Of a DNA stretch of 13,113 nucleotides, positions 1 to 13,113 are shown piece after piece (positions within the stretch are counted from its first letter, which is position 1; each line of letters begins with the position of its first letter). Source of the stretch: Betaproteobacteria bacterium (GTDB lineage: Bacteria; Pseudomonadota; Gammaproteobacteria; Burkholderiales; Nitrosomonadaceae); the NCBI GenBank assembly GCA_022601315.1, contig JAHZIU010000396.1, forward strand, positions 1 through 13,113, read 5' to 3'. The notes beneath the pieces were generated by a model. The model was not told the origin of the DNA, searched no databases, and saw nothing but the letters and a program-made list of their open reading frames with translations. Position numbers and translations under genes: made by a program.

Positions 1-2382
1 GGAGAAATAAATGTTTCAAGAACACTAGGCAATTTGTTTAATCTGGCTGATAAGGAAGCGCAAAAAAGAGGTGACCAATTTATTGCCTCGGAAATGTTTT
101 TATTGGCTGCGGTTAAAGACAAAGGTGAAGTTGGCAACATATTGAAACAACATGGCGCCAGTTATAGTGCATTGGAAGAAGCAGTTAATACGGTACGCGG
201 CGGTGAGCAAGTGAACAGTGCTGAAGCAGAGAGCAGCCGTGAAGCATTAAAAAAATACACGCTTGATCTGACAGAGCAAGCACGTCTCGGCAAGCTTGAC
301 CCGGTCATCGGGCGTGATGATGAGATTCGCCGCGCGATCCAGGTATTACAACGACGTACTAAAAACAATCCAGTCCTTATCGGTGAACCGGGAGTGGGGA
401 AAACAGCCATTGTAGAAGGTCTGGCGCAGCGCATTATTAATGGTGAAGTACCTGAGAATTTAAAAGACAGACGGGTTTTATCGTTGGACATGGCGGCGCT
501 TCTGGCTGGTGCTAAGTTTAGAGGAGAATTTGAAGAGCGCCTTAAATCAGTATTAAAAGAACTGGCACAGGATGAAGGCACGACTATTTTGTTTATTGAC
601 GAATTGCACACGATGGTTGGCGCTGGCAAAGCTGAGGGTGCAATGGATGCCGGCAATATGCTGAAACCAGCACTGGCCCGTGGGGAATTACATTGTGTTG
701 GCGCGACGACATTAGATGAATACCGCAAATTCATCGAAAAAGATGCCGCATTGGAAAGGCGATTTCAAAAAGTGCTCGTAGAAGAACCCACTGTTGAAGC
801 AACGATAGCCATTTTACGTGGGCTTCAGGAAAAATATGAAGTCCATCACGGTGTTGATATCACTGATCCAGCCATTGTTGCCGCCGCCGAATTGTCCAAT
901 CGCTATATTACGGATCGTTTTTTACCCGACAAAGCCATCGATCTGATCGATGAAGCTGCCGCACGCATAAGTATGGAGATAGATTCCAAACCGGAAGCAT
1001 TGGATATACTAGATCGGCGCCTGATACAACTCAAGATTGAACGTGAGGCGATTAAAAGAGAAAAAGATGAAGCTTCATTAAAACGCTTACAATTACTCGA
1101 AGACGAGATTAAACAGAAATCACGTGAATATGCTGATCTGGATGAGGTCTGGAAAACAGAAAAATCTCAAGTCCAGGGGACTCAGCATATTAAGGAGGAA
1201 ATGGAGAAGGTTAAACTGGAAATGGATGCGGCAACGCGGAAAGGAGATTGGCAAAAAGTCTCTGAACTGCAATATGGTCGTATCCCACAATTAGAATCAC
1301 AACTCCAGACACAACTCAGTGTCCAGGATAAGCAATCAAATCTTTCAGAACAAGATACCGAATCCGAACAACCAAAACTACTACGAACACAAGTAGGTGC
1401 AGAAGAAATTGCAGAAGTTATTTCACGTGCCACAGGGATTCCTGTATCAAAAATGATGCAGGGCGAACGTGACAAATTACTATTGATGGAACAAAAATTA
1501 CATGAACGTGTCATAGGACAGAATGAAGCGGTAAGACTTGTATCTGATGCAATTCGCCGTTCCCGGGCTGGTTTAGCTGACCCAAACCGGCCTTACGGGT
1601 CATTTCTATTCCTCGGCCCAACGGGTGTTGGAAAAACTGAATTATGTAAAACACTGGCAAATTTTTTGTTTGATTCAGAGGATCATTTAATTCGTATTGA
1701 TATGTCTGAATTCATGGAAAAACATTCAGTTGCACGTTTGATAGGTGCGCCCCCGGGCTATGTCGGCTATGAAGAAGGTGGATACCTGACCGAAATTGTG
1801 CGTAGAAAACCTTATTCTGTCATTCTCTTGGATGAAGTTGAAAAGGCACACCCAGATGTCTTTAATGTGTTGTTACAAGTATTAGACGATGGCAGAATGA
1901 CTGATGGACAGGGACGTACGGTCGATTTTAAGAATACGGTTATTGTCATGACGTCCAATCTTGGATCACAAATGATCCAGGAGATGGCTGGTAATGAATA
2001 TACTGCCATTAAGCAAGTGGTTATGGAAGAAGTAAAAACATATTTCCGACCAGAATTTATTAATCGTATTGATGAAGTGGTTGTTTTTCACGCATTAGAT
2101 GAGAAAGATATTCAATCAATCGCACAAATACAACTACAGCATCTACATACTCGATTAGCAAAACTGGAAATCAGCTTACAAGTGAGTAAAGAAGCACTTG
2201 CAGCATTATCACATGTTGGTTTTGATCCCGTTTTTGGTGCACGACCGCTTAAGCGAGCAATACAATCACAAATTGAGAATGCACTAGCAAAAGAGATTTT
2301 AGAAGGTAATTTTGCTGCCAAAGACACAATTTCTGTTGACTATTGCGATGGTTTGATGCAGTTTAATAAAATAGTCCAGTAG
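1..2382 (+). CDS. clpB: ATP-dependent disaggregase ClpB (5'-truncated by window edge)
   Basis: ClpB is the Hsp100 AAA+ ring chaperone that, with DnaK, threads aggregated proteins through its pore in the cytoplasm. The frame is open from base 1, and residues before the first in-window TTG still fit the family. About 65-75 N-terminal residues of the usual ~860 therefore lie upstream, and 793 are present. Seen in order: the rest of the Clp N domain; NBD1 with Walker A GEPGVGKT (382-405) and Walker B ILFIDE (586-603); the coiled-coil M domain (about 990-1330), rich in Glu/Lys/Gln; NBD2 with Walker A GPTGVGKT (1615-1638), the pore loop [13 protein letters not shown] (1744-1782), Walker B VILLDE (1819-1836), and the sensor-2 GAR motif (2236-2244). 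The linker between M domain and NBD2 is about ten residues longer than in E. coli. The gene is single and ends at its own terminator. No heat-shock promoter can be judged, as it would lie upstream of the window. Confidence 0.98.
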
Positions 2383-2415
2383 AATGTTATTTGTTAGTTT
2401 AATTGCAAGTCATAC

Positions 2416-2460
2416 ATCTCAGCTTGGCATTACTACCGAGCTGAGATAGTTCTTTTCTTA
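2416..2460 (+). terminator. Probable intrinsic terminator after clpB
   Basis: A 12-bp stem (2416-2427 with 2436-2447, one T.G wobble, otherwise perfect) closes an 8-base loop and is followed by a T-rich run (2451-2460). It starts 34 bases past the clpB stop. The tail is interrupted by C and A, so termination may be incomplete, but stem and tail fit Rho-independent termination and separate clpB from dapA. Confidence 0.8.
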
Positions 2461-2546
2461 TTAGAAAAAATCCGGCATATACTGCGAATCTACTTAATTG
2501 ATGCGAGTTTCGGGTAAAATACGTTTTTTTCACGGGATAGATAGTC

Positions 2547-3434
2547 ATGTTTAAAGGTAGCTTGGTTGCTATCGTCACTCCTATGGAGACAGATGGTAGT
2601 CTAGACCTGGAACGTTTTCGCACCCTTATTGACTTCCACATAGAACAAGGCACCGATGGTATTGTCGTGGTAGGCACGACGGGTGAATCACCCACCGTTG
2701 ATTTTGATGAACATCGACTGCTGATGCAAACTGCGGTTGATCATGTGGCTGGTCGTATACCAGTAATCGCTGGCACTGGTGGGAATTCAACACGCGAAGC
2801 AATTGGTTTATCAATTGACGCAAAGACTGCAGGGGTAGATGCTTGTCTTTCCGTAGCACCATATTACAACAAACCAACCCAGCAAGGGTTATATCAGCAT
2901 TTCAAGGCGATTGCTGAAGCAGTAGATATCCCCCTTATTTTGTATAATGTGCCGGGTAGAACCGTTGCAGATATTGCTAACGACACTGCACTACGCTTAG
3001 CACAAGTACCCAATATCATTGGCATCAAAGATGCGACTGGTAATATTGGAAGAGGATCTGATTTATTGCGCCGTGCACCGTCTGATTTCTTCATTTACAG
3101 CGGTGATGACATAAGTGCGCTAGCGTTATTGTTACTAGGCGGGCATGGCACTATTTCCGTTACTGCAAATGTTGCGCCCAACTTAATGCATAAAATGTGT
3201 GCAGCTGCATTTTCTGGCGATTTAAATACAGCACGGGCAATCAACAATAAACTAATGAGGCTACATGTTGACTTATTTGTAGAATCCAATCCAATTCCGG
3301 TAAAGTGGGCTGTTGCACAAATGGGGCTTATTTCTTCAGGTTTGCGTTCACCATTAACACCATTATCTGATGAGCACCATCAACTTGTCAGAGATGCGAT
3401 GAATTTAGCCAATATTCTCGATTCCAAGGGGTAA
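2547..3434 (+). CDS. dapA: 4-hydroxy-tetrahydrodipicolinate synthase
   Basis: DapA condenses pyruvate with aspartate semialdehyde, the first committed step to diaminopimelate and lysine, in the cytoplasm. The 295 residues align end to end with the E. coli enzyme. Lys161 (in GIKDATGN) is the Schiff-base lysine; Thr44 and Thr45 (GTTGES), Tyr107 (PYYN) and Tyr133 with Arg138 (YNVPGRT) form the catalytic relay and substrate site. In the lysine feedback site Ser48, His56, Asn80, Glu84 and Tyr106 are kept, but the E. coli His53 is Phe and Ala49 is Pro. The ATG at 2547 gives the family's standard N-terminus; its ribosome site is weak (GGGA at 2534-2537). A -10-like TAAAAT lies at 2515-2520, without a convincing -35 box. 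The bamC start follows after one base, so the two are co-transcribed. Confidence 0.97.
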
Positions 3435-3451
3435 AATGAGGGGTAAAATGA
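3428..3451 (+). repeat. 12-bp perfect tandem duplication spanning dapA stop and bamC starts
   Basis: GGGGTAAAATGA occurs twice head to tail (3428-3439 and 3440-3451). Each copy carries a G-rich ribosome-site-like block and an ATG four bases later, so bamC has two in-frame starts (3436 and 3448). The first copy also contains the dapA TAA stop. Confidence 0.95.
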
Positions 3452-4596
3452 CAAAAGTGAGACGGCAGAGTGTAACTATACTATATTCGGCACTGATACT
3501 TTCGTTAGCATTAACAGGTTGTAATATTTTCTCTGAAAACAAGAAAATAGACTATAAATCAACGGGAAGATTACCAGCATTGGATGTCCCGCCTGATTTA
3601 ATCACACCGATTACAGATGATCGCTATGCTATTCCAGACGCTGATTCGCCGGGTAGCACAACGTTCTCTTCTTATAGTAATGAACAGGGAACTCAACCAA
3701 GAGTCGGCTCCTCTTCTCTGTTGCCCATGTCAGTCCAAGATGTGCATATTGAGCGCGCAGGCACGCAACGCTGGCTGGTTATCCCTCAAGCACCAGAAGC
3801 AGTATGGCCAATCGTTAAAGAATTCTGGCAGGAGTTGGGGTTTTTAATCAAAACTGAAGTTCCTGAAGCGGGCGTAATGGAAACGGATTGGGCAGAAAAT
3901 CGTGCCAGCATTCCTCAAGATTTTATTCGAAATTTTCTTTCTACTTTTTTAGATAGTATTTATTCCGCTGCTGAACGAGATAAGTTTCGAACACGCCTGG
4001 AGCGAAATGAAAATGGTTATACCGAAGTTTACATTAGTCACCGTGGTATGGACGAAGTACTGGAGGGCGGAAGCACACAGCGCACTATCTGGCAACCTCG
4101 CCCTTCTGATCCGGATCTTGAGGCTGAAATGCTTTCTCGATTAATGATTCGATTTGGCGTCGAGGAAGAACGCGCTAAACTTGAACTTGCAACAGTAGGT
4201 ACGACTCAGGATCGTGCATATATTGATACTGATACAGGACAAACACTCATCGTCGATGAAGCATTTGATCGGTCTTGGCGTCGTGTTGGATTAGCACTTG
4301 ATCGAATTGGATTTACAGTTGAAGACAGAAATCGTATTGATGGCATCTATTATGTACGTTATATCGATCCTGAATCAGATAGCCATAAAACGGGCGATGA
4401 TGATGGCCTCTTATCAGGGCTAATGTTTTGGCGTAAAAATGATGAAAAAGATTCCAATGCAGACAAATATCATATCTTGGTCAGAGAAGTCGGAACAAAT
4501 AGCAGCATTGTTACCGTCTTGAATGAAGATAACACACCGGTAAGTGCCAGTATCGCTACACGCATTCTTAATTTGCTACATGAGCAACTTAAATAA
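3436..4596 (+). CDS. bamC: Outer-membrane assembly lipoprotein BamC (NlpB)
   Basis: BamC is an accessory lipoprotein of the Bam complex that inserts beta-barrel proteins into the outer membrane. The N-terminus has a basic region, a hydrophobic stretch and the lipobox LTGC with Cys29 as the lipidated residue (Cys25 if the second ATG, 3448, is used). Residues 40-67 match the unstructured BamC segment that contacts BamD (LPALDVPPDL, then ITDDRYAIP). Two helix-grip domains follow, about 110-215 and 268-386, joined by a helical linker (225-255). At 386 residues it is longer than the 344-residue E. coli protein, with an inserted helix-rich part around 155-190. The dapA-bamC order is conserved in many proteobacteria. 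Either ATG could be used. The second has GAGGGG four bases before it, is closer to typical lengths and is slightly preferred, but 3436 cannot be excluded. Confidence 0.93.
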   Translation: MRGKMTKVRRQSVTILYSALILSLALTGCNIFSENKKIDYKSTGRLPALDVPPDLITPITDDRYAIPDADSPGSTTFSSYSNEQGTQPRVGSSSLLPMSVQDVHIERAGTQRWLVIPQAPEAVWPIVKEFWQELGFLIKTEVPEAGVMETDWAENRASIPQDFIRNFLSTFLDSIYSAAERDKFRTRLERNENGYTEVYISHRGMDEVLEGGSTQRTIWQPRPSDPDLEAEMLSRLMIRFGVEEERAKLELATVGTTQDRAYIDTDTGQTLIVDEAFDRSWRRVGLALDRIGFTVEDRNRIDGIYYVRYIDPESDSHKTGDDDGLLSGLMFWRKNDEKDSNADKYHILVREVGTNSSIVTVLNEDNTPVSASIATRILNLLHEQLK

Positions 4597-4685
4597 GGTA
4601 ATACTATAATTAATAAATCGAACTGTAATGATCAAGTCTTGAAGTAAAAATTATAGTTCTATCGTACAGTAGGCGGAACCACAAA

Positions 4686-4714
4686 AGGTTGCCCAGGATC
4701 TCCTTGGGCAGCTT
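4686..4714 (+). other. RNA-type hairpin in leader of the zinc-ribbon membrane protein gene
   Basis: Bases 4686-4697 and 4703-4714 form a 12-bp stem with three G.T wobbles around a 5-base loop (ATCTC). There is no following T-run, so it is not an ordinary terminator. A possible enclosing pairing is GGAACC (4675-4680) with GGTTCC (4758-4763), and AACC of the first strand can alternatively pair with GGTT at 4687-4690. The rest of the 196-base gap holds a 9-bp AT-rich inverted repeat (ACTATAATT 4603-4611 with 4649-4657) and no gene. It may be a cis-regulatory leader or a small RNA; no known riboswitch class was recognised. Confidence 0.5.
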
Positions 4715-4792
4715 CCTAGGAAAGGCCGATATCTAACAAACAGATCCAAAATTTCTAGGTTCCATCGTGTCAATCATAATCTGGAGCTTGTA

Positions 4793-6187
4793 ATGGATAT
4801 TTCGTTTTATCTGCTAAGTCTTGCTGTTATTCCGCTCTTTGCTGCAAGAGGTGCGCTCTCACTATTGTGCATGGTTCTTCTGGCAGAATATTATGTATAT
4901 CTCAGGTATTTAGGCATTGACCCAGACAGTTTATTGACACAACTTGCAGATGCACCCGGATCATCTCTTTGGCTTGATGCTAGCTTACATGAATGGCTTA
5001 TATCAACCACAACCCCCCTGGCATTACTCACCGCTCTGCCGGAATGGTTAACATCTCCGACATCAATAGGTGTGCTGTTTGTCCTAAGTATCATTGAGTA
5101 TATCTATAACAAATCTCCTGATATGCGCCAGCTTTTTCCATTTGGGGAATCAGAGCTAAAAGGGATATTTGCAGCCACATTATGCTTTTCTCTAGTTGGC
5201 GGGAATATTGAAGATCTTGTTCAACATTTTAAACATGCAGGTGTTACCTCTGATTTTGCAGGGTTTATCTCGATTGAATATGTATGGTCTTTTGTTGTTG
5301 GCTGTCTTACCTGGTTCGTATCTGGCATAAGAAATGGCTTTTACTTATTATTAACAGAAATGGACCCAACAGATGAAATTGGTGTTCGCAACTTACTTTC
5401 TTTTGTGGAAACCAGCCTGGGCATTTTTGGCCCATTATTTGTTGTGCTCATGCCCCTCGCAGCAGTTATTGTTGCCGGTCTGGCTGTATTAATCCTGTAT
5501 TTAATTAAATATCAGTTAGAAAAAAGAGAGGCCAAACAGTATCGCGCCTGTACGAATTGTGGCCACGAGAATCATCTTTGTGCGCCTAATTGCGGACAAT
5601 GTAATACAGTTATGCAATCACCGGTTGCTGTAGGTTGGTTCGGACAGGCAACTGAAACACCAATAACAAATTTGCATCAGCATAAATTGGAACTGCTAGA
5701 AAACAAGCGTTGCAGCTACTGTGCAGCAAGATCCAAAGAAAATGGACTCAATATTGATTGTGAAGTTTGTGGCAAACCGTTTTTTGGCACTATTGAAGAA
5801 ATCGACGCTTATTTAGCACATCTGCGGAAGAAATTGCCTAAAACATTACTGGTTACCGCTGCCTTTAGTGCAATCCCCATTGTTGGCATTATTCCTGGTA
5901 TTTTGTATTACCGGTTAGCATTAATCAGTGGTTTGCGTCTGTATTTACCACGTATATCCAATTTTTGGGCACGATGGTTTGTTCGACTTGGCAGCCTGAC
6001 ACTACTTTTTTTACAATGGATTCCCGGTCTAGGTATTGTATCGTTACCATTGATGTGTCTACTCAATTATGGCGTATATTCTTCAAGTTTTAATAGGCAG
6101 CGAGAAAAACACATTTCAAATAAACCCGCTTTTGAAGCCCAGAGACAGATTCAAAGCCCGAGCCTGGATACTAATAATACTAAGTAA
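4793..6187 (+). CDS. Polytopic membrane protein with double zinc ribbon, function unknown
   Basis: I do not recognise the family with confidence. The 464-residue product has hydrophobic segments at about 3-30, 92-106, 123-136, 160-178, 205-238, 351-375 and 398-428. Between the fifth and sixth lies a soluble region with two successive zinc ribbons: Cys253/Cys256 with Cys267/Cys270 (plus Cys263), and Cys307/Cys310 with Cys323/Cys326. The C-terminal tail after 430 is polar. A membrane protein with an internal double zinc ribbon recalls PqiA-type or DUF4126-type proteins only loosely. The start is set by GGAG (4783-4786) six bases before the ATG. It stands alone, behind a leader with a strong hairpin, and its 3' end overlaps the convergent dehydrogenase gene by eight bases. 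No substrate or pathway can be assigned. Confidence 0.85.
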   Translation: MDISFYLLSLAVIPLFAARGALSLLCMVLLAEYYVYLRYLGIDPDSLLTQLADAPGSSLWLDASLHEWLISTTTPLALLTALPEWLTSPTSIGVLFVLSIIEYIYNKSPDMRQLFPFGESELKGIFAATLCFSLVGGNIEDLVQHFKHAGVTSDFAGFISIEYVWSFVVGCLTWFVSGIRNGFYLLLTEMDPTDEIGVRNLLSFVETSLGIFGPLFVVLMPLAAVIVAGLAVLILYLIKYQLEKREAKQYRACTNCGHENHLCAPNCGQCNTVMQSPVAVGWFGQATETPITNLHQHKLELLENKRCSYCAARSKENGLNIDCEVCGKPFFGTIEEIDAYLAHLRKKLPKTLLVTAAFSAIPIVGIIPGILYYRLALISGLRLYLPRISNFWARWFVRLGSLTLLFLQWIPGLGIVSLPLMCLLNYGVYSSSFNRQREKHISNKPAFEAQRQIQSPSLDTNNTK

Positions 6188-7139
6188 TACCGACTTGATT
6201 AAAGGGCTTATTTTGAAAAAAATTATTGATATTTTCCGCTATTTGATCCAATAAACGTTGTCTGGATTCTCTGCTGGCCCAGGCAATGTGCGGGGTTACA
6301 ATCAGATTAGGTAATTGGTATTGTAATATCATACTGTCTTTTGCAGGCGGCTCCTCTTGCAAAACATCGATACCTGCACCTGCAATACTATTTGTCGATA
6401 AACTATGTAGCAGGTCTTTTTCATTCAGTAACCCGCCGCGTGCTGTATTTATAAGATATGCCGTGGGCTTCATCAATTCAAGTTCTCTGCGGCTTATCAA
6501 GTTACGCGTTTCTGGTGAAAGCGGGCAATGCAGTGTTATGAAATCCGCTTGTCCGATTACTTCGTCAAATGCTGTTCTACCAGATCGTGCAGGTTTGTTT
6601 TTATGTTCCGCTATTAATACATTCATGCCGAATGCTTCGGCGACTTTAGCCACGCCCCTACCCAATTCACCGTAACCGATTATTCCCAAAGTTTTACCAG
6701 ACAATTCTTCAATACTAAAGTCAAGTGGACAAAAGTATTTGCTGGCCTGCCAACCACCACTTTTTACTAAGGCCTGATATTCCAAAAATCGGCACGATAA
6801 ATTCAGCATGAGCATTAAAACATGTTGCACGACAGATGATGTGGCATAACCGCGTACATTACAAACAGGAATATTGCGTTCAGCCGCAGCAGAAAGATCG
6901 ACATTGTTGAATCCGGTTGCAGCGATACATATTAATTTCAAGCGATTTGCTGCAAAGATTGCTTCGCGATTAAGAAACACTTTGTTGTTAACAATGATTT
7001 CTGCTTCCTTGATTCTCTCCAACACCTCCTGCTCAGAAGAATCTTGGTAGTATCGCCAGGGAGATATCGCCTGTTCCAGTGCCGTACAGTCCATATCACC
7101 ACGGCTACCGGAACCAAAATCAAGAAAAACTGCACGCAT
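6180..7139 (-). CDS. D-2-hydroxyacid dehydrogenase (hydroxypyruvate/glycerate reductase type)
   Basis: A cytoplasmic NAD(P)H-dependent oxidoreductase interconverting a 2-keto acid and a D-2-hydroxy acid. The 319 residues match the family length. The nucleotide-binding motif GYGELG is at 155-160 and the substrate-side ATGFNNVD at 74-81. The catalytic triad is Arg234 (TARGG), Glu263 (QEEPP) and His284 (TPHIAW). The acidic Glu178 at the end of the second Rossmann strand favours NADH over NADPH. ATGFNNVD and the overall pattern fit glycerate dehydrogenase/hydroxypyruvate reductase (HprA) best, but substrate cannot be read from sequence alone. The ATG at 7139 has GGAG (7147-7150) upstream and a near-consensus promoter. 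With gph nearby, a role in two- and three-carbon acid recycling is plausible but inferred. Confidence 0.93.
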   Translation of the reverse strand: MRAVFLDFGSGSRGDMDCTALEQAISPWRYYQDSSEQEVLERIKEAEIIVNNKVFLNREAIFAANRLKLICIAATGFNNVDLSAAAERNIPVCNVRGYATSSVVQHVLMLMLNLSCRFLEYQALVKSGGWQASKYFCPLDFSIEELSGKTLGIIGYGELGRGVAKVAEAFGMNVLIAEHKNKPARSGRTAFDEVIGQADFITLHCPLSPETRNLISRRELELMKPTAYLINTARGGLLNEKDLLHSLSTNSIAGAGIDVLQEEPPAKDSMILQYQLPNLIVTPHIAWASRESRQRLLDQIAENINNFFQNKPFNQVGIT

Positions 7140-7168
7140 TTATTCGCTCCAATTGTATTGTTATGTGA

Positions 7169-7198
7169 ATTATATAAAGTAGAAAATAATAGCCGCAA
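7169..7198 (-). promoter_or_regulatory. Candidate sigma-70 promoter of the D-2-hydroxyacid dehydrogenase gene
   Basis: On the minus strand TTGCGG (7193-7198) is followed after 18 bases by a perfect TATAAT (7169-7174), which lies 29 bases before the start codon. The -35 box is only a half match, so strength is uncertain. Confidence 0.5.
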
Positions 7199-7214
7199 AA
7201 TTGTATTTATAACA

Positions 7215-7241
7215 CTGTATGATCATATCGTAACGATACAG
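7215..7241. promoter_or_regulatory. Operator-like inverted repeat between divergent genes
   Basis: Two nested inverted repeats occupy this stretch: CTGTAT (7215-7220) with ATACAG (7236-7241), and TATCGT (7226-7231), one base, ACGATA (7233-7238). They lie upstream of the dehydrogenase promoter and about 50 bases before tpm, a position suited to a regulator of either gene. No known operator was matched. Confidence 0.35.
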
Positions 7242-7290
7242 ATGAATAGATTCAGACATTTCAAATTACTGTAACAGGGGATACGCCTAT

Positions 7291-7962
7291 ATGACAAAAG
7301 AATATTGGTTAGATCGATGGGAACATGACGAAATTGGCTTTCACCAAAATGAAATTAACCCATACTTGCGTCAGTATTGGCGGGAATTAAACTTGCCCAG
7401 TGACTGTAAGGACTGTCAAGTATTCGTACCATTGTGCGGTAAAAGCCATGATTTGCTTTGGTTGCGTGAGCAAGGTCATAAAGTATTAGGCGTAGAATTC
7501 AGCACCCAGGCAGTGCAAGCATTTTTTGACGAAAACAAACTTAGCCCGCAGCTTCAAACCCTTGAAAAACTGGAATGCCTAAGTGCAAATGATATTAGTA
7601 TTCTATGCGGTGATTTTTTTGACGTGCACTATCACCATCTGTCGCAGGTAGGCGCAGTTTATGACCGCGCATCATTGGTTGCGTTATCGCCGGAAATACG
7701 TAAAAAATACGTACGCCACCTTTTAGATATCCTGCCACCAGCCACCCAGATTTTATTGATTACATTTGACTATCCACAGTTTGAAATGCCCGGCCCACCA
7801 TTTGCAGTTTCAGCGGAAGAAGTCAGAGCACTCTATGATCAACATGCCCAGATTCATTTACTGGCGAAATTCGACGTAACCGCACAGAATCCACGCTATC
7901 AGGCGTATGGTCTAAGTAAAGTCCAAGAAAGTATATATTTGCTAACAACAAATCCCAAATAA
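7291..7962 (+). CDS. tpm: Thiopurine S-methyltransferase
   Basis: An S-adenosylmethionine-dependent methyltransferase of the TPMT family; bacterial members methylate thiopurines and can methylate oxidised selenium and tellurium species. The N-terminal pattern (YWLDRW...IGFHQ, residues 5-19) and the SAM-binding VPLCGKSHDLLWL (46-58) with GVEFS (67-71), GDFFD (107-111) and YDRASLVAL (124-132) are diagnostic. The length of 223 fits the family (about 215-225). The ATG at 7291 has AGGGG (7276-7280) ten bases upstream. The gene stands alone, transcribed away from the dehydrogenase, and its stop lies only 14 bases from the convergent apaG stop with no clear terminator between. The physiological substrate in this organism is unknown. 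Confidence 0.95.
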   Translation: MTKEYWLDRWEHDEIGFHQNEINPYLRQYWRELNLPSDCKDCQVFVPLCGKSHDLLWLREQGHKVLGVEFSTQAVQAFFDENKLSPQLQTLEKLECLSANDISILCGDFFDVHYHHLSQVGAVYDRASLVALSPEIRKKYVRHLLDILPPATQILLITFDYPQFEMPGPPFAVSAEEVRALYDQHAQIHLLAKFDVTAQNPRYQAYGLSKVQESIYLLTTNPK

Positions 7963-7976
7963 ATCATCAATGTAAA

Positions 7977-8360
7977 TTAATGAATCACTCTTGGCACGCT
8001 TAGAATAAATTCAGGTATCGAAACATCAAAATGAACGCCATCTTCTGCCGCCATTTGATAGCTTCCTTTCATCGAACCAACAGATGATGAAATAACCGTA
8101 CCACTGGTATATTCAAAGCTATCACCAGGCCGCAGCAATGGCTGCTCACCGACCACCCCTAACCCACGAACTTCCTGAATACTGCCATCGCCACTGTCTA
8201 TAATCCAGTGTCGACTAATTAACTGCGTTGCAACTAATCCATTATTTTCAATGGTGATTGTGTATGCGAACACATGACGTGCTTCATCTTCTGAAGATTG
8301 ATCAGGTAAGTAAGTCGTACGAATACTAATATCTATTTCATATTTATTATTTTCTGACAT
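7977..8360 (-). CDS. apaG: Co2+/Mg2+ efflux-associated protein ApaG
   Basis: ApaG is a small fibronectin-type beta-sandwich protein linked to cobalt resistance and magnesium efflux and, in some species, to diadenosine tetraphosphate metabolism; its biochemical role is unsettled. From the ATG at 8360 the product is 127 residues, matching the usual ~125, and starts MSENNKYEIDISI in line with the family. The conserved glycine-rich GVVGEQP (68-74), LRPGDSFEYTSG (76-87) and GSMKGSYQM (95-103) are present. The frame stays open to an ATG at 8462, adding 34 residues that no ApaG needs, so I chose the inner start. Its ribosome site is weak. A -35/-10 pair placed so that transcription would begin at about the A of the ATG suggests a possibly leaderless message. 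It is divergent from rpe, an arrangement frequent in betaproteobacteria. Confidence 0.93.
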   Translation of the reverse strand: MSENNKYEIDISIRTTYLPDQSSEDEARHVFAYTITIENNGLVATQLISRHWIIDSGDGSIQEVRGLGVVGEQPLLRPGDSFEYTSGTVISSSVGSMKGSYQMAAEDGVHFDVSIPEFILSVPRVIH

Positions 8361-8366
8361 TTGCCC

Positions 8367-8395
8367 ATTGCACACTATTTTTTGAATGGTTTCAA
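8367..8395 (-). promoter_or_regulatory. Candidate promoter of apaG, possibly leaderless
   Basis: Minus-strand TTGAAA (8390-8395; five of six consensus bases), a 17-base spacer and TGCAAT (8367-8372; four of six) lie directly before the apaG ATG (8358-8360). Transcription starting 6-7 bases past the -10 box would begin at about the start codon. Confidence 0.4.
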
Positions 8396-8502
8396 GAAGA
8401 AAATGCATTACATGATAAGAATTTGATAATCTAATGTGTTTCTCAATCGTTATTTTAGTCATTTGCGGTTAAAATACGCTCTTTAATAAAAAGAGGTCTC
8501 AC

Positions 8503-9180
8503 ATGTACCGAATAGCACCAAGCATTTTATCTGCTAATTTTGCAAAACTTGGCGAAGAAATAACCGCCGTTATCGATTCTGGTGCAGATATTGTGCATTT
8601 TGATGTAATGGATAATCATTATGTTCCAAATCTGACCATTGGCCCACTAGTGTGTGAAGCCATTCGTCCTGTAACCGATGCAATTATTGATGTTCATCTG
8701 ATGGTTGAACCCGTTGATCGAATTATTCCTGATTTTGCTAAAGCTGGCGCAAATATCATTTCATTCCACCCGGAAGCATCCAACCATATAGACCGCACCA
8801 TTGGACTCATCAAGGAGCAGGGTTGTAAAGCGGGTCTTGTTTTTAATCCCGCAACACCACTACATTATCTGGATCATGTTCTGGATAAATTGGATTTAGT
8901 CCTGATTATGTCAGTGAACCCAGGTTTTGGTGGACAAAAATTCATACCTGAAGCACTAACCAAACTATCAGCAGTGCGTAAACGCATAGATGCCAGCGGA
9001 AAAGATATTATGTTGGAGATTGATGGCGGCGTAAAAGTTGACAATATCGCTGAAATTGCACGCGCAGGCGCCGACACCTTTGTTGCTGGATCAGCCATTT
9101 ATAACGCGGGCAAAGACAGTGACCCACATCGCTATGATTCCGTTGTCTCAGCGTTACGTGCTGAACTAGCAAAAGTATAA
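8503..9180 (+). CDS. rpe: Ribulose-phosphate 3-epimerase
   Basis: A cytoplasmic TIM-barrel metalloenzyme that interconverts ribulose 5-phosphate and xylulose 5-phosphate in the pentose phosphate pathway and, in autotrophs, the Calvin cycle. The length of 225 is typical. Metal ligands and acid/base residues are visible: His32 and Asp34 ([13 protein letters not shown]), His65 (DVHLMV) and Asp174 (EIDGGV). The phosphate-binding glycine loops are [10 protein letters not shown] (136-145) and the C-terminal VAGSAIY. GAGG (8493-8496) lies six bases before the ATG. gph follows after 42 bases on the same strand with no terminator between, so the two are probably one transcript. Upstream lies a 142-base region shared with the divergent apaG. 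Confidence 0.97.
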
Positions 9181-9222
9181 TTACAATAAAGAAAATATTT
9201 TACGATATTTTCAAGGATCTAA

Positions 9223-9951
9223 ATGAATAGTCAAAACTTTAACACAGCCCAGTCATCGGTTAAAAAAATAGATATCCCGCTACCTGTAAAAGTAATCATG
9301 ATTGATTTAGACGGGACATTACTAAATACAGCGGATGATCTTGCACTGGCGGCAAATTTAATGCTGCGTGAACTGGATCTTCCCGAAAAATCACCGGCCA
9401 CCATTCAGTCATATATTGGTAAAGGTATTGAGCGATTGGTCAAACGTACTTTGACAGGCCATATGGATGAAGAACCGGAGGCAACGCTCTTTGCAAAAGC
9501 TCTGCCTATCTATAAGAATCATTATGCAACAAATTTGAGCATAAACACACGACCCTATCCAGGCGTGATAAACGGTATTGAAGCGTTGTTAAAAGCTGGT
9601 TTTAAACTGGCTTGCATTACCAATAAATCAGAAATATTTACATTACCACTACTACAGGCTACCGGCTTAATTGATCAATTTGAGATTGTATTATCAGGTG
9701 ACAGCCTACCAAGAAAGAAGCCGGATCCCTTACCTTTACTACATATTTGTAAACATTTTGATGTACATCCGAGTAAAGCCTTATTAATCGGCGATTCGCT
9801 CAATGATGCGATTGCTGCACGTGCAGCAGGTTGCCATATTTTTTGTGTCCCTTATGGGTATAATGAAGGGCGCGATGTCTATGATTTGGATTGCGATGCT
9901 ATTGTTAATTCACTAGAAGACGTGTCAGCATTAATAAAAGTTATGGATTAG
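9223..9951 (+). CDS. gph: Phosphoglycolate phosphatase (HAD family)
   Basis: Gph dephosphorylates 2-phosphoglycolate to glycolate, clearing the product of DNA 3'-end repair and, in Calvin-cycle organisms, of RuBisCO oxygenation. The HAD motifs are complete: motif I DLDGTLLNT with nucleophile Asp28 and acid/base Asp30, motif II in CITNKSE, motif III lysine in RKKPDP, and motif IV GDSLNDAIAA. A helical cap lies between motifs I and II. The length of 242 is slightly above the usual ~225-235 because of about 20 extra N-terminal residues. AAGGA (9213-9217) five bases before this ATG supports the start. It sits behind rpe as in many beta- and gammaproteobacteria, but the trp genes that often follow are absent. 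Substrate specificity within the HAD group rests on length and neighbourhood. Confidence 0.9.
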   Translation: MNSQNFNTAQSSVKKIDIPLPVKVIMIDLDGTLLNTADDLALAANLMLRELDLPEKSPATIQSYIGKGIERLVKRTLTGHMDEEPEATLFAKALPIYKNHYATNLSINTRPYPGVINGIEALLKAGFKLACITNKSEIFTLPLLQATGLIDQFEIVLSGDSLPRKKPDPLPLLHICKHFDVHPSKALLIGDSLNDAIAARAAGCHIFCVPYGYNEGRDVYDLDCDAIVNSLEDVSALIKVMD

Positions 9952-10090: not shown

Positions 10091-10543
10091 TTATTTTTTC
10101 AATGCTTCAAGTTCTTCTTTTAACTTTTTAATTTCTTCATCTGCACGAATCTGATCAGTAATCTCGTATTGCACACCGAGGAAATACAATATGTCTCCAT
10201 TAGAATCGAACAGCGGTGTCATACTCAAGTGGTTATAGAATAACTCACCATTCTTGCGATAATTTCTGAGTGTTACAACAATCGGTTCTTTATTTTTAAT
10301 CGCTTCTCGTAATTGTTTTACACCTTCTTGATCATGATCGGTTCCTTGTAAAAAACGACAATTTCTACCGATCGTATCCTCCTGTGAATAGCCCGTTATG
10401 CTTTCAAATGCTTTATTCGCATATACCAGCGGTAAATCTTTTTGATCAGGGTCAGCTAATGTCACGCCGTTCACACAAGAGTCGAGGATTTCTGCTAATA
10501 CTTTTGGAATTAATCCAGGGTCTTTCTCAGCGATAAAGTCCAT
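10091..10543 (-). CDS. Short LOV blue-light photoreceptor (stand-alone PAS/LOV protein)
   Basis: A single flavin-binding LOV domain with short caps and no effector domain, expected to be cytoplasmic. The signature GRNCRFLQG gives Cys62 as the photoadduct cysteine. Asn94, Asn104 and Gln125 stand exactly 32, 42 and 63 residues after it, the same spacing as in oat phototropin LOV2 (Cys450, Asn482, Asn492, Gln513), so FMN binding and photochemistry should be intact. Residues 126-150 form an acidic/basic helix resembling a J-alpha/dimerising coiled coil; residues 1-20 form an N-cap helix. At 150 residues it matches short LOV proteins of Pseudomonas putida, which signal by dimer rearrangement. GGAG lies eight bases before the ATG (10552-10555). 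It is last in the gluQRS-oxidoreductase-SRPBCC series, 82 bases after the SRPBCC stop, so it may also have its own promoter. The partner it controls is unknown. Confidence 0.95.
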   Translation of the reverse strand: MDFIAEKDPGLIPKVLAEILDSCVNGVTLADPDQKDLPLVYANKAFESITGYSQEDTIGRNCRFLQGTDHDQEGVKQLREAIKNKEPIVVTLRNYRKNGELFYNHLSMTPLFDSNGDILYFLGVQYEITDQIRADEEIKKLKEELEALKK

Positions 10544-10570
10544 TATTTTTTCTCCAGGTTAATCTATTAC

Positions 10571-10624
10571 AACCAATAAAAAAACAACTTAACTTGCATA
10601 ACTTTTCATAATTGGTCAAACCAA
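10571..10624 (-). promoter_or_regulatory. Repeat-rich spacer upstream of the LOV gene
   Basis: This 54-base stretch holds a 5-bp hairpin TTGGT/ACCAA with a 3-base loop (10612-10624), a more distant ACCAAT (10572-10577) complementary to ATTGGT (10611-10616), and three AACTT copies (10586, 10591, 10600). It could hold an operator or a weak attenuator between the SRPBCC and LOV genes; no promoter is convincing. Confidence 0.25.
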
Positions 10625-10625
10625 A

Positions 10626-11096
10626 TCAGGATTGTTTTGTTTCAATTAATTTTTTAATGTTTTTTACTGTTGTTTCTGTACCCCCCTGAATAGCAATTCG
10701 CACAAGCTTCTCAAATGGTTTTATATGTAATTCAAGATCCAGCAACTCGAATGAAAATGTAAGGCGACTCTCTGTTGAATTGACCGATTCTATAACATAA
10801 TCACATTGATAAGGGTTTGAAACACCTTTAAAGCTAATACGTGTACCTTCATCAAAAACAGTTATTTTAAAAGTTGATTCTGATCGATTACCCTGATCAA
10901 TACGTACTTGACGACACAAAGTTCCAAGCTGCATCGGACCATCTGTTAATTTCTCCAGTTCTTTAACTTCAGGCGACCATATAGGATAATTTACCAGCAA
11001 ATCGGTCCCTATAAATTGAAATAAGCTATCACTCGAACTATGAATCAATGTGCTGGCTTTACCAATAACCGGCGTTTTATTTAACAAACCAAACAT
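10626..11096 (-). CDS. SRPBCC (START-like/polyketide-cyclase-like) ligand-binding protein
   Basis: A 156-residue protein with the helix-grip pattern of the SRPBCC superfamily: an N-terminal strand (14-20), short helices (22-37), a conserved WSP turn (40-42), a run of amphipathic strands (58-122), and a long C-terminal helix (126-153). Members bind small hydrophobic ligands such as lipids, quinones or polyketides. No catalytic residues or signal peptide are seen. I chose the ATG at 11096 because AGGAG lies eight bases upstream (11105-11109); the frame opens two codons earlier at a TTG, but that is only two bases from the ribosome site. It starts 24 bases after the oxidoreductase stop, so the two are surely co-transcribed. 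The ligand is unknown; a quinone or lipid would suit the neighbour, but that is inference. Confidence 0.8.
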   Translation of the reverse strand: MFGLLNKTPVIGKASTLIHSSSDSLFQFIGTDLLVNYPIWSPEVKELEKLTDGPMQLGTLCRQVRIDQGNRSESTFKITVFDEGTRISFKGVSNPYQCDYVIESVNSTESRLTFSFELLDLELHIKPFEKLVRIAIQGGTETTVKNIKKLIETKQS

Positions 11097-11104
11097 AATC
11101 AAGT

Positions 11105-11109
11105 CTCCT
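11105..11109 (-). promoter_or_regulatory. Ribosome binding site deciding the SRPBCC start
   Basis: Minus-strand AGGAG lies eight bases before the ATG at 11096, which favours it over the in-frame TTG at 11102. Confidence 0.8.
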
Positions 11110-11120
11110 GCCTAGAAACG

Positions 11121-12278
11121 CTAAATCAGGTATGTATCGACACCAACAAGTAGCAAGTCATATTGTGTCTCTACCAATTCTTTAATTGCCAGTGCCGGCA
11201 TACCTGAAACGACATTACCTTCTGAAACCAACCAACCAACCGCATCTGTCGACCCAAGACTCACAACATAGCCTAATTCATGGTGTAAATATGGCTCTAG
11301 TAATCCAATAACACTAGAATGCCGTAAAATATTGCGCGCTGCAAGTTTACCTTTGCGCACTGCGGATTGTGCCGCTAGTATATTGGAGCCTAATGAGTTA
11401 TAAAAAGAACAATCCCCGGCGACAAAAATATTTTGCAATACTTTTTGATCGATTAACAGTTGCCCAAAAGCATTAGCAACCAACTGTTTTTTCTTTTTTT
11501 TACCTAAAAACAGCAGTGTTAAATCTGAAGGCAGCTCAAATTGTTTTTTTGAATTTTTTTCCTCCAATAAAATTTTTTCGATCTGTTGTTCACGATAATA
11601 AGTATTAGGAAAAAACTCTATCCCAGAATCTTGTATACATGACTGCACATAAGAATCAAAACCTTTAGGAAACTGCTCAAGCACCCGATCTCCAGAATGA
11701 ATTAAGCGAAGTTTGGCATTAATTCTTTTTCTGCGTAAAAACTGCTCGACTTCAAATAAAAATTGAATGCCCGTCGCACCGCCACCGATTACAGAGATTG
11801 AGTGTTCGGTTTTTTCACTTTTGGCGAGGTGGTTTGTTAATAAATCTGACCCGGCTAATGTCATGAAATCCTGTAAACTCAATACATTTTCAATCTGTTG
11901 ATTCACTGCCTCACCACAGCCCGATGCAATTAACAGATAATCAAACGCTACAACCTCATCATGCAACGCAATACATTTATCTGCTTGCCATTGTTGCAAA
12001 ATATTTTCATCAAATAATAATTCTTCCTGTATATGACGAAAGTCAAAACGTGCTGTTAAATCGGCAAATGATACTTGCAGATCAGACAAGGGATAACGGA
12101 ATGTTTCATGTAAATGCGTTACCTTAATATGTTGTTCACGTGGGTCAACAATTATAATTTCAATATTCTCGGCATAACGTGTCAATGCAGAAAGCGCAGC
12201 CATTCCCGCATAACCTCCACCGACAATTATTATTTTTATTCGCTTTTTATTCGGTATATAAAATGGCAAAAAAGCCAC
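11121..12278 (-). CDS. NDH-2-like FAD/NAD(P)-dependent oxidoreductase
   Basis: A two-Rossmann flavoprotein that probably moves electrons from NAD(P)H to a quinone or other acceptor. From the GTG start it has 385 residues. The FAD-binding IVGGGYAG is at 18-25 with Asp45 ending the second strand; ASG (118-120) and the NAD(P)-binding VIGGGATG (163-170) follow. The second FAD motif is VAGDCS (286-291), then AAQSAVRKGKLAARN (302-316). The C-terminal GYVVSLGSTDAVG (336-348) resembles the tail of type II NADH dehydrogenases and FSP1-like reductases. There is no CxxC redox pair, so it is not a disulfide reductase. No transmembrane span is evident; NDH-2 enzymes attach peripherally. A perfect AGGAGG (12283-12288) lies four bases before the GTG; no ATG is available nearby. 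It follows gluQRS by 19 bases. A run of five lysines (260-264) carries an in-phase A_AAA_AAG slippery heptamer. Confidence 0.85.
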   Translation of the reverse strand: MAFLPFYIPNKKRIKIIIVGGGYAGMAALSALTRYAENIEIIIVDPREQHIKVTHLHETFRYPLSDLQVSFADLTARFDFRHIQEELLFDENILQQWQADKCIALHDEVVAFDYLLIASGCGEAVNQQIENVLSLQDFMTLAGSDLLTNHLAKSEKTEHSISVIGGGATGIQFLFEVEQFLRRKRINAKLRLIHSGDRVLEQFPKGFDSYVQSCIQDSGIEFFPNTYYREQQIEKILLEEKNSKKQFELPSDLTLLFLGKKKKKQLVANAFGQLLIDQKVLQNIFVAGDCSFYNSLGSNILAAQSAVRKGKLAARNILRHSSVIGLLEPYLHHELGYVVSLGSTDAVGWLVSEGNVVSGMPALAIKELVETQYDLLLVGVDTYLI

Positions 12279-12282
12279 GAAG

Positions 12283-12288
12283 CCTCCT
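12283..12288 (-). promoter_or_regulatory. Perfect Shine-Dalgarno deciding a GTG start
   Basis: Minus-strand AGGAGG, fully complementary to the 16S 3' end, sits four bases before the GTG at 12278. The alternatives in frame are a TTG at 12314, ahead of this site, and a TTG at 12269, 13 bases past it; both are poorer. Confidence 0.75.
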
Positions 12289-12297
12289 GTTAAATTA

Positions 12298-13113
12298 TTA
12301 TGGGATTTTATCAATCCGCCAATTACTAATTGCCCATTGCCAAAGTGATGCTAAGTTACTTGCTCGCAATTCCTTGGGAGGTGCCTGCCCTAAAAATTGT
12401 AACGCGGCAATTAATTGTGATGAGGTATCTGAAAGATTAATTGGTTCTGCAAGCGTTTGTTTGCTGAGTTTCTCTCCCAGTGAATTGGTTACAACAGGTA
12501 AATGCATATATGTTGGTGTAGTATATCCCAATAATTGCTGCAAATAGATTTGGCGTGGTGTTGAATCCAGCAAATCAGCGCCTCGCACGACATGTGTAAT
12601 GTGTTGCGATGCATCGTCGACCACCACAGCTAATTGATAAGCATAAACACCATCCGCCCTGCGCAACACAAAATCTCCAATATCGCGTTCGAGACATTGA
12701 CAAGTTGAGCCTCTCAAAATATCTCTAAATTGTATAAGGTGGTGATGCGTTCTAAGTCGCAATGCGAATTGCCTGCCTACATGGGAGACACCGTTCCGAC
12801 AAGTTCCTTGATATACAGGGCCGCTGAGACCCACTATACTGGAGTCAACAATTTCTTTGCGTGAACATGTACAGGGATAAATCTTCGCCATTTGCGTTAA
12901 ATTGCTTAATGCAAGCTGGTATGCTTCATAACGTCGGCTTTGAAAAATTACTTCACTATCCCATTCCATGCCAAGTTTTTCAAGTGTTCTAAGGATATCA
13001 TACGACGCGCCCGCTACCATTCTTGGTGGATCTAGGTCTTCAATTCTGACTAACCATTCACCATTATTAAATTTTGCATCCAAATAACTGCCAATCGCTG
13101 CCACCAACGAACC
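12298..13113 (-). CDS. gluQ: Glutamyl-Q tRNA(Asp) synthetase (5' end outside window)
   Basis: GluQRS (YadB) is a glutamyl-tRNA synthetase paralogue lacking the anticodon-binding domain. It activates glutamate and attaches it to queuosine at the wobble base of tRNA-Asp. The frame runs off the window edge: the first in-window residues GSLVAAIGSYL align just after the HIGH-like motif of the E. coli protein, so about 20-25 N-terminal residues are missing and 271 are present. Visible are LVRIEDLDPPR, the zinc-site pattern C-x-C (CTCSRKE), Tyr (GPVYQGTC) and a final Cys, the active-site DGVYAYQLAVVVDD with HVVRGADLL, and the KLSKQ version of KMSKS near 12456-12473. It ends 19 bases before the oxidoreductase start. 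In gammaproteobacteria it often follows dksA; that region is out of view here. Confidence 0.96.
   Translation of the reverse strand, partial: GSLVAAIGSYLDAKFNNGEWLVRIEDLDPPRMVAGASYDILRTLEKLGMEWDSEVIFQSRRYEAYQLALSNLTQMAKIYPCTCSRKEIVDSSIVGLSGPVYQGTCRNGVSHVGRQFALRLRTHHHLIQFRDILRGSTCQCLERDIGDFVLRRADGVYAYQLAVVVDDASQHITHVVRGADLLDSTPRQIYLQQLLGYTTPTYMHLPVVTNSLGEKLSKQTLAEPINLSDTSSQLIAALQFLGQAPPKELRASNLASLWQWAISNWRIDKIP

Follow-up and report, generated by a model that had tools for sequence, protein, structure and literature searches.

An SRPBCC–LOV gene pair of Nitrosomonadaceae as a candidate two-protein blue-light switch

The gene series and the proteins of the pair

The window analysed here is the whole 13,113-nt contig C77 from a draft genome (2.29 Mb, 75% complete) of a member of Nitrosomonadaceae, the ammonia-oxidising bacteria. 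Four genes on the minus strand follow one another at its end, with gaps of 19, 24 and 82 nt. They are gluQRS and the genes for an NDH-2-like flavoprotein, an SRPBCC protein and a short LOV protein. The original prediction described these four same-strand genes as one possible light/redox module, and the spacing is borne out by the coordinates. The series is not a chance arrangement, because flavoprotein–SRPBCC–LOV recurs at 78 and SRPBCC–LOV at 103 of the 105 LOV loci found in the family. As judged from the sequence comparisons, the conserved unit is the two-gene module SRPBCC–LOV, and the four-gene module that includes gluQRS was rejected as too wide. The pair looks like a short LOV system with an apparently new type of partner.

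The LOV gene (10091..10543, minus strand) encodes a putative short blue-light receptor of 150 aa, composed of the LOV core and a C-terminal helix. The protein matched PAS_9 (7e-22) and the solved short LOV structure 7a6p (7.2e-34). No output domain was found after the LOV part in the open reading frame (ORF) or by Pfam and NCBIfam, which places the protein among short LOV proteins, of ~150 aa without an output domain. The open frames of the LOV family ranged from 121 to 213 aa (105 rows). The best NCBIfam model was that of YtvA, the LOV-STAS protein of Bacillus. However, the score of 166.2 bits was below the 250-bit cut-off, and only model residues 2–135 of 243 were aligned, leaving the STAS part unmatched. 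The likeness to YtvA is confined to the LOV part, and membership in that family was rejected.

The photoactive Cys is located in the motif GxNCRFLQ, and the flavin-contacting Asn, Asn and Gln follow at +32, +42 and +63, spaced as in LOV2 of oat phototropin. These residues (Cys62, Asn94, Asn104 and Gln125) were invariant in 30 of 30 aligned LOV proteins, drawn from both clades of the pair (clades I and II, see below). The fixed spacing was found in 71 of 73 clade-I rows, while the other two failed the fixed count; a two-residue insertion in this region was seen in one family row of the 30-row alignment. Judged by these residues, the LOV protein has what a flavin–cysteine photocycle needs.

The SRPBCC gene (10626..11096, minus strand) encodes a START-like protein of 156 aa, the putative LOV effector. 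Its ATG start is preceded by AGGAGA, and the alternative TTG at 11102 is less likely. Sequence searches placed the protein poorly: Polyketide_cyc2 was matched below the Pfam threshold (24.4 bits vs the cut-off of 27.4), NCBIfam gave zero matches, and nothing was found among PDB sequences at E ≤ 1. The AlphaFold2 model, calculated from an alignment of 34 sequences from the window and the named loci, had a mean pLDDT of 92.2 and displayed the helix-grip fold, in which a curved sheet surrounds a long C-terminal helix (residues 123–155). Foldseek matched the model to PR-10 proteins, the abscisic acid receptor PYL2, the aromatase/cyclase ZhuI and TTHA0849 with a probability of 1.00 and TM up to 0.78 (ZhuI), whereas sequence identity was only 10–17% in the 50 rows listed. 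We therefore predict with high confidence a pocket protein of the helix-grip fold. The PYL receptors illustrate that a protein of the SRPBCC fold can partner another protein in a ligand-gated manner. We know of no SRPBCC protein, be it PYL, PR-10 or ZhuI, that is a partner of LOV.

The 82-nt spacer between the two genes (10544..10625, minus strand) contained no terminator-like site in the scan. Over the scanned sequence, neither promoter-like sites (8 vs 10.2 expected) nor terminator-like sites (1 vs 2.0 expected) were in excess. By eye, a plausible ribosome-binding site precedes each of the flavoprotein, SRPBCC and LOV genes.

Conservation, absence and relocation of the pair

Protein searches were run over 125 Nitrosomonadaceae genomes, with thresholds of E ≤ 1e-25 for LOV and E ≤ 1e-40 for the flavoprotein. 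The genomes fell into Nitrosomonas (g1), Nitrosospira (g3) and two other genera (g2 and g4). SRPBCC was matched in 111 genomes, LOV in 100 and the flavoprotein in 120. We counted 105 short LOV copies, excluding one match (G009:C30, E 2.8e-30) whose 317-aa frame is not a short LOV. At 103 of these copies, SRPBCC was located directly upstream on the same strand, and the remaining two lie at contig starts. The SRPBCC–LOV distance, taken between match ends and not gene ends, was 45–231 nt with a median of 80 nt. The flavoprotein was found directly upstream of SRPBCC at 78 loci, namely at 65/74 in Nitrosomonas, 5/5 in g2, 8/8 in g4 and 0/18 in Nitrosospira. Where it adjoins, the gap to SRPBCC was 22–31 nt (10th–90th percentile, again between match ends). 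In at least one genome without it beside the pair (G028), the contig ends at that point. Thus, of the adjacency of LOV, SRPBCC and reductase that the original prediction proposed to check, the SRPBCC–LOV part held nearly everywhere and the reductase part at 78 of 105 loci only.

A second view was obtained from named records, using the best 80 of 334 SRPBCC relatives; this set overlaps with the 125 genomes and is not independent of them. SRPBCC–LOV was present in 78 of these 80 loci, and the other two (L206 and L213) stop at a contig end. The relatives came from Nitrosomonas (including N. ureae, oligotropha, aestuarii, marina, communis, nitrosa, halophila and mobilis) and Nitrosospira (briensis and multiformis), as well as from Nitrosovibrio and further members of the family; a few records were loosely named. 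The flavoprotein of one of the latter, labelled alphaproteobacterial (L226), was placed among family members on the tree. The pair occurs in each of the family's four genera. Beyond the family, the sample of the order yielded nothing: the SRPBCC model A1 matched 10 of 399 genomes, all within the family, and the LOV model A2 (E ≤ 1e-24) matched 116 of 399, outside the family only in open frames of at least 308 aa. Up to nine candidates per genome were scored in both cases, and weak or crowded cases may escape. The prospect raised with the original prediction, that the neighbourhood would not extend beyond close relatives, is thus contradicted for SRPBCC–LOV; for the reductase it applies in part. 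Fusions of LOV and SRPBCC were not seen among the rows shown, where SRPBCC frames reached 224 aa, although no dedicated search was made.

The spacers of 68 SRPBCC–LOV loci comprised 64 distinct sequences. By eye, the clade-I spacers have in common only a ribosome-binding stretch ahead of the LOV gene, which in many Nitrosomonas loci reads TTAACCTGGAGA. Two spacers were far longer than the others, with 210 nt in L044 and 167 nt in L100. The former appears by eye to have matching inverted ends and is perhaps a small mobile element.

The two genes were also missing together. Among the 25 LOV-less genomes, 14 had no SRPBCC match, and in nine all matches had E-values like those of a methyltransferase-type paralogue. 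At least one place was read in six of these nine (all but G050, G070 and G079), each beside a methyltransferase gene. The other two LOV-less genomes carry a LOV-type SRPBCC: in G005 the contig ends there, and in G077 (Nitrosomonas) a broken LOV gene lies beside an intact SRPBCC gene (L269:855-1155), with a transposase-like frame ~500 nt away. Of the 14 flavoprotein loci without the pair that were read, five belong to Nitrosospira, and the pair is located elsewhere in G093, G096, G099 and G105. At the flavoprotein locus of G042, only a 33-residue remnant resembling the SRPBCC start was found. Both this remnant and the broken LOV gene of G077 are losses.

A tree of 65 flavoproteins requires at least six changes between loci with and without the pair next to the flavoprotein, and well-supported branches force five of these. 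One change corresponds to the Nitrosospira group and the others to groups that miss both genes; the count does not separate gain from loss. Because of the pair-less loci and these changes on the tree, the flavoprotein is seen as the stable part, and SRPBCC–LOV as a unit that comes and goes. On this comparative evidence, SRPBCC and LOV share one orientation, are paired almost without exception, and are inherited, moved and absent together.

The genome of the window itself contains a second pair on contig C121 (L255, 3107-4790), with 80% identity in both proteins and with neither the flavoprotein nor gluQRS. In total, 13 clade-I pairs lack an adjoining flavoprotein (seven in Nitrosomonas and six in Nitrosospira), and a lipocalin gene is nearby in six of them, a raw count in which the other flanks are short. 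The lipocalin gene lies directly downstream on the same strand in C121 and in G096, downstream with one gene between in G056 (L150) and with two between in G060 (L177), and is convergent to the LOV gene in G097 and G100 (L084 and L085; again L228 and L229). A diverged lipocalin (34 and 39% identity) also follows flavoprotein–SRPBCC–LOV in L216 and L225. A pyrimidine-dimer glycosylase gene adjoins the lipocalin gene in L150, and ORFs of like appearance, by look only, are present in C121 and L177. In L177 (6036-9079), a ferrochelatase gene begins 29 nt downstream of LOV and is followed by a CIA30-like gene (by similarity to L150), the lipocalin gene and a probable pyrimidine-dimer glycosylase gene.

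A different architecture was observed in clade II, where SRPBCC–LOV is followed by an O-methyltransferase gene at 12 of 12 loci, from 12 Nitrosospira genomes. The last gene is mostly cut by the locus end and is whole in L122–L125. A paralogue of SRPBCC (~50–55% identity) is located directly before an O-methyltransferase gene (Methyltransf_2), without LOV, at 25 of 25 places read; an additional, broken copy of this arrangement is present in G084. At least 66 SRPBCC matches do not adjoin a LOV gene. On the SRPBCC tree, which took every third Nitrosomonas row of the LOV-linked set, clade-II SRPBCC proteins grouped with the methyltransferase-type paralogues and apart from clade I (support 100/100). 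The linkage to LOV required two changes on the best tree and one in 47% of the bootstrap trees. The clade-II LOV proteins have a different C-terminal tail in the 30-row alignment, and the SRPBCC–LOV spacer measured 17–36 nt in nine of ten printed loci and 167 nt in one. Given the clade-I and clade-II architectures, LOV has been kept beside SRPBCC in two divergent versions, each with an enzyme of its own. In L111–L115, L117–L119 and L142–L147, the methyltransferase next to the LOV-less paralogue is BchU/CrtF-like, an arrangement that many Nitrosomonadaceae possess. We also noted a MerR-like regulator gene (L113:7682-8122, G010) ~3 kb from, and not adjacent to, one such SRPBCC–methyltransferase pair.

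A putative light switch and its alternatives

We propose that SRPBCC and LOV form a two-protein blue-light switch of Nitrosomonadaceae, in which LOV acts on SRPBCC, and SRPBCC binds a hydrophobic ligand and signals to a neighbouring enzyme. We assign this reading a probability of roughly one half. Blue light would generate a flavin–cysteine adduct in LOV, and the adduct would alter the binding of LOV to SRPBCC, presumably by direct contact. The changed binding may open, close or block the pocket of SRPBCC to a ligand that would be hydrophobic and perhaps quinone-like or aromatic. Delivery of the ligand to a nearby enzyme would be gated in this way, the enzyme being the NDH-2-like flavoprotein in the architecture of the window and the O-methyltransferase in Nitrosospira. 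The NDH-2-like enzyme, O-methyltransferase and lipocalin neighbours fit a small hydrophobic molecule, for instance a quinone, and a light-controlled quinone or lipid step, the idea of the original prediction, is possible. The switch is probably used for protection under light stress, which is a guess. The claim about the partner is firmer than those about ligand, enzyme and use, which are guesses. More tentative is the broader proposal that in ammonia oxidisers the stand-alone LOV protein has an effector of a new class, a START-like ligand carrier in place of a DNA-binding partner or a kinase. This carrier would place reactions of small molecules, namely quinone redox in Nitrosomonas and O-methylation in Nitrosospira, under direct blue-light control.

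Several observations weigh against the proposed switch. A gene pairing can persist for co-expression alone, and both the LOV–SRPBCC interaction and the ligand are putative. The SRPBCC paralogue lacks LOV at all 25 places read; therefore, this type of SRPBCC can presumably work without LOV. The lone SRPBCC of G077 indicates that the two genes need not vanish simultaneously. Moreover, the partial distance correlation over 73 loci was only somewhat higher for LOV–SRPBCC (0.53) than for the other pairs (0.39 and 0.42); it carries little weight, because all three genes are linked and the difference is small.

A precedent for such a partnership is PmSB-LOV of Pseudomonas mendocina, a protein of 148 aa which, when lit, directly binds PmlR2, a class II LitR encoded by the adjacent gene (PMC9758184). 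We count it as a precedent because its light-dependent partner is encoded next door; it resembles our LOV protein in size and in lying next to the gene of its partner, a putative one in our case. In that account, however, the partner is a MerR-type DNA-binding repressor, whereas here it would be an SRPBCC pocket protein. The constant neighbour in our loci is SRPBCC, and by eye the ORF lists contain no MerR-like gene beside the pair, so the LitR-coupled type of short LOV was rejected. LdaP of Dinoroseobacter shibae likewise works via a separate partner, but it is larger (38.5 kDa with tag) and the partner is the photosynthesis repressor PpsR (PMC10890935).

These systems point to the best-surviving alternative, which we consider rather unlikely: the target of LOV may be a transcription factor whose gene lies elsewhere, as a LitR is for PmSB-LOV and PpsR for LdaP, with SRPBCC and LOV being merely co-members of a light-stress transcription unit. 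Transcription factors are the partners that the two reports describe for stand-alone LOV proteins (PMC9758184, PMC10890935). Of 13 genomes checked, 12 contain MerR_1 matches, and second copies of the pair are located near genes for a pyrimidine-dimer glycosylase (L150), lipocalin (L150 and L255) and ferrochelatase (L177). Nevertheless, inspection by eye of the ORF-listed loci showed no regulator gene as a steady neighbour of the pair, and G013 has kept flavoprotein–SRPBCC–LOV with no MerR_1 match. Mere co-regulation would also not require the adjacency that 103 of 105 loci have kept across several relocations. Matches to the photolyase family PF00875 were present in 38 of 100 LOV genomes vs 2 of 25 LOV-less ones, a comparison uncorrected for kinship and given no weight; two of the 38 (G012 and G088) have broken pieces only, and the window's genome has none.

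Less probable still is the view of the original prediction that the reductase belongs with SRPBCC and LOV to a single redox module under light control. The flavoprotein does adjoin most pairs at a narrow gap, and at least one of the misses falls at a contig end. However, it has been kept in 21 LOV-less genomes, adjoins none of the 18 Nitrosospira LOV loci, and is still preceded by gluQRS at nine of the 14 pair-less loci. From these loci, the flavoprotein belongs to the gluQRS locus, with gluQRS a plain neighbour. The prediction that LOV acts on a nearby partner is therefore strongly backed by conservation for SRPBCC and not for the reductase. Finally, it is very improbable that the LOV-like protein is a flavin-based redox or flavin-buffer protein rather than a light sensor, with the pairing reflecting lipid or quinone stress: cysteine-less LOV variants can reportedly still respond via flavin photoreduction (PMC5645311), but here the Cys and the three flavin-contact residues are invariant and the expected spacing is nearly so.

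The proposed SRPBCC–LOV switch would, if true, mean that short LOV proteins can have partners other than transcription factors, which would also serve optogenetic tools. Nitrifiers are inhibited by light, more strongly at short wavelengths, as two reports state (PMC9797979, PMC9239080), and the pair suggests a light switch in microbes that light inhibits. Present in 100 of 125 family genomes and absent in several separate lineages, the pair would make the light response of ammonia oxidisers genetically testable. In our literature search, SRPBCC together with "short LOV" or "LOV domain" was not found; subscription papers, including broad LOV surveys, were outside its reach. Among the matches listed, there was no paper on a LOV protein of a nitrifier (Nitrosomonas, Nitrosospira). 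In PMC12627116, which contains LOV and photoreceptor, Nitrosomonas occurs in the reference list only; PMC10818357 also contains the three words. "Nitroso" is absent from the main text of PMC4844311 and PMC4416707, as are LOV and photoreceptor from the accessible part of the photoinhibition paper PMC9797979.

Flavoprotein, gluQRS and the remaining window

The flavoprotein gene (11121..12278, minus strand) encodes 385 aa from a GTG start, which by eye is preceded by AGGAGG; its assignment came from Pfam, NCBIfam and PDB matches, and the protein is a neighbour and possible output in this architecture. It matched Pyr_redox_2 (3.1e-23), and its nearest solved relative was NDH-2 of S. aureus (5na1, 6.9e-21), aligned over query residues 24–389 of 397. 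The protein is thus related to type II NADH dehydrogenases over nearly its full length. Canonical NDH-2 enzymes carry the quinone motif AQxAxQ and a catalytic Glu, whereas the flavoprotein has AQSAVR and GGGATGIQ instead (AQSAVR in 68/73 and GGGATG[ILV]Q in 66/73 rows). As the quinone motif and the Glu are replaced, we call the protein NDH-2-like only.

The gluQRS gene (tRNA glutamyl-Q(34) synthetase; 12298..13113, minus strand) is a neighbour outside the module, and its 5′ end is cut at the contig end. The NCBIfam GluQRS model scored 354.1 bits vs a cut-off of 256. Its inclusion in the module was rejected, since it stays with the flavoprotein at nine of the 14 pair-less loci; at the other five it is not beside the flavoprotein either. 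A group of Nitrosomonas genomes (L270, L271 and L273–L275), which the flavoprotein tree places near N. halophila and N. mobilis, lacks the pair and has no gluQRS next to the flavoprotein.

Positions 1–9951 of the window look ordinary. Pfam identified tpmt, apaG, rpe and gph (HAD hydrolase), and by eye we recognised the 3′ part of clpB, dapA, a bamC-like lipoprotein gene, a gene for a membrane zinc-ribbon-like protein and a D-2-hydroxyacid dehydrogenase-like gene.

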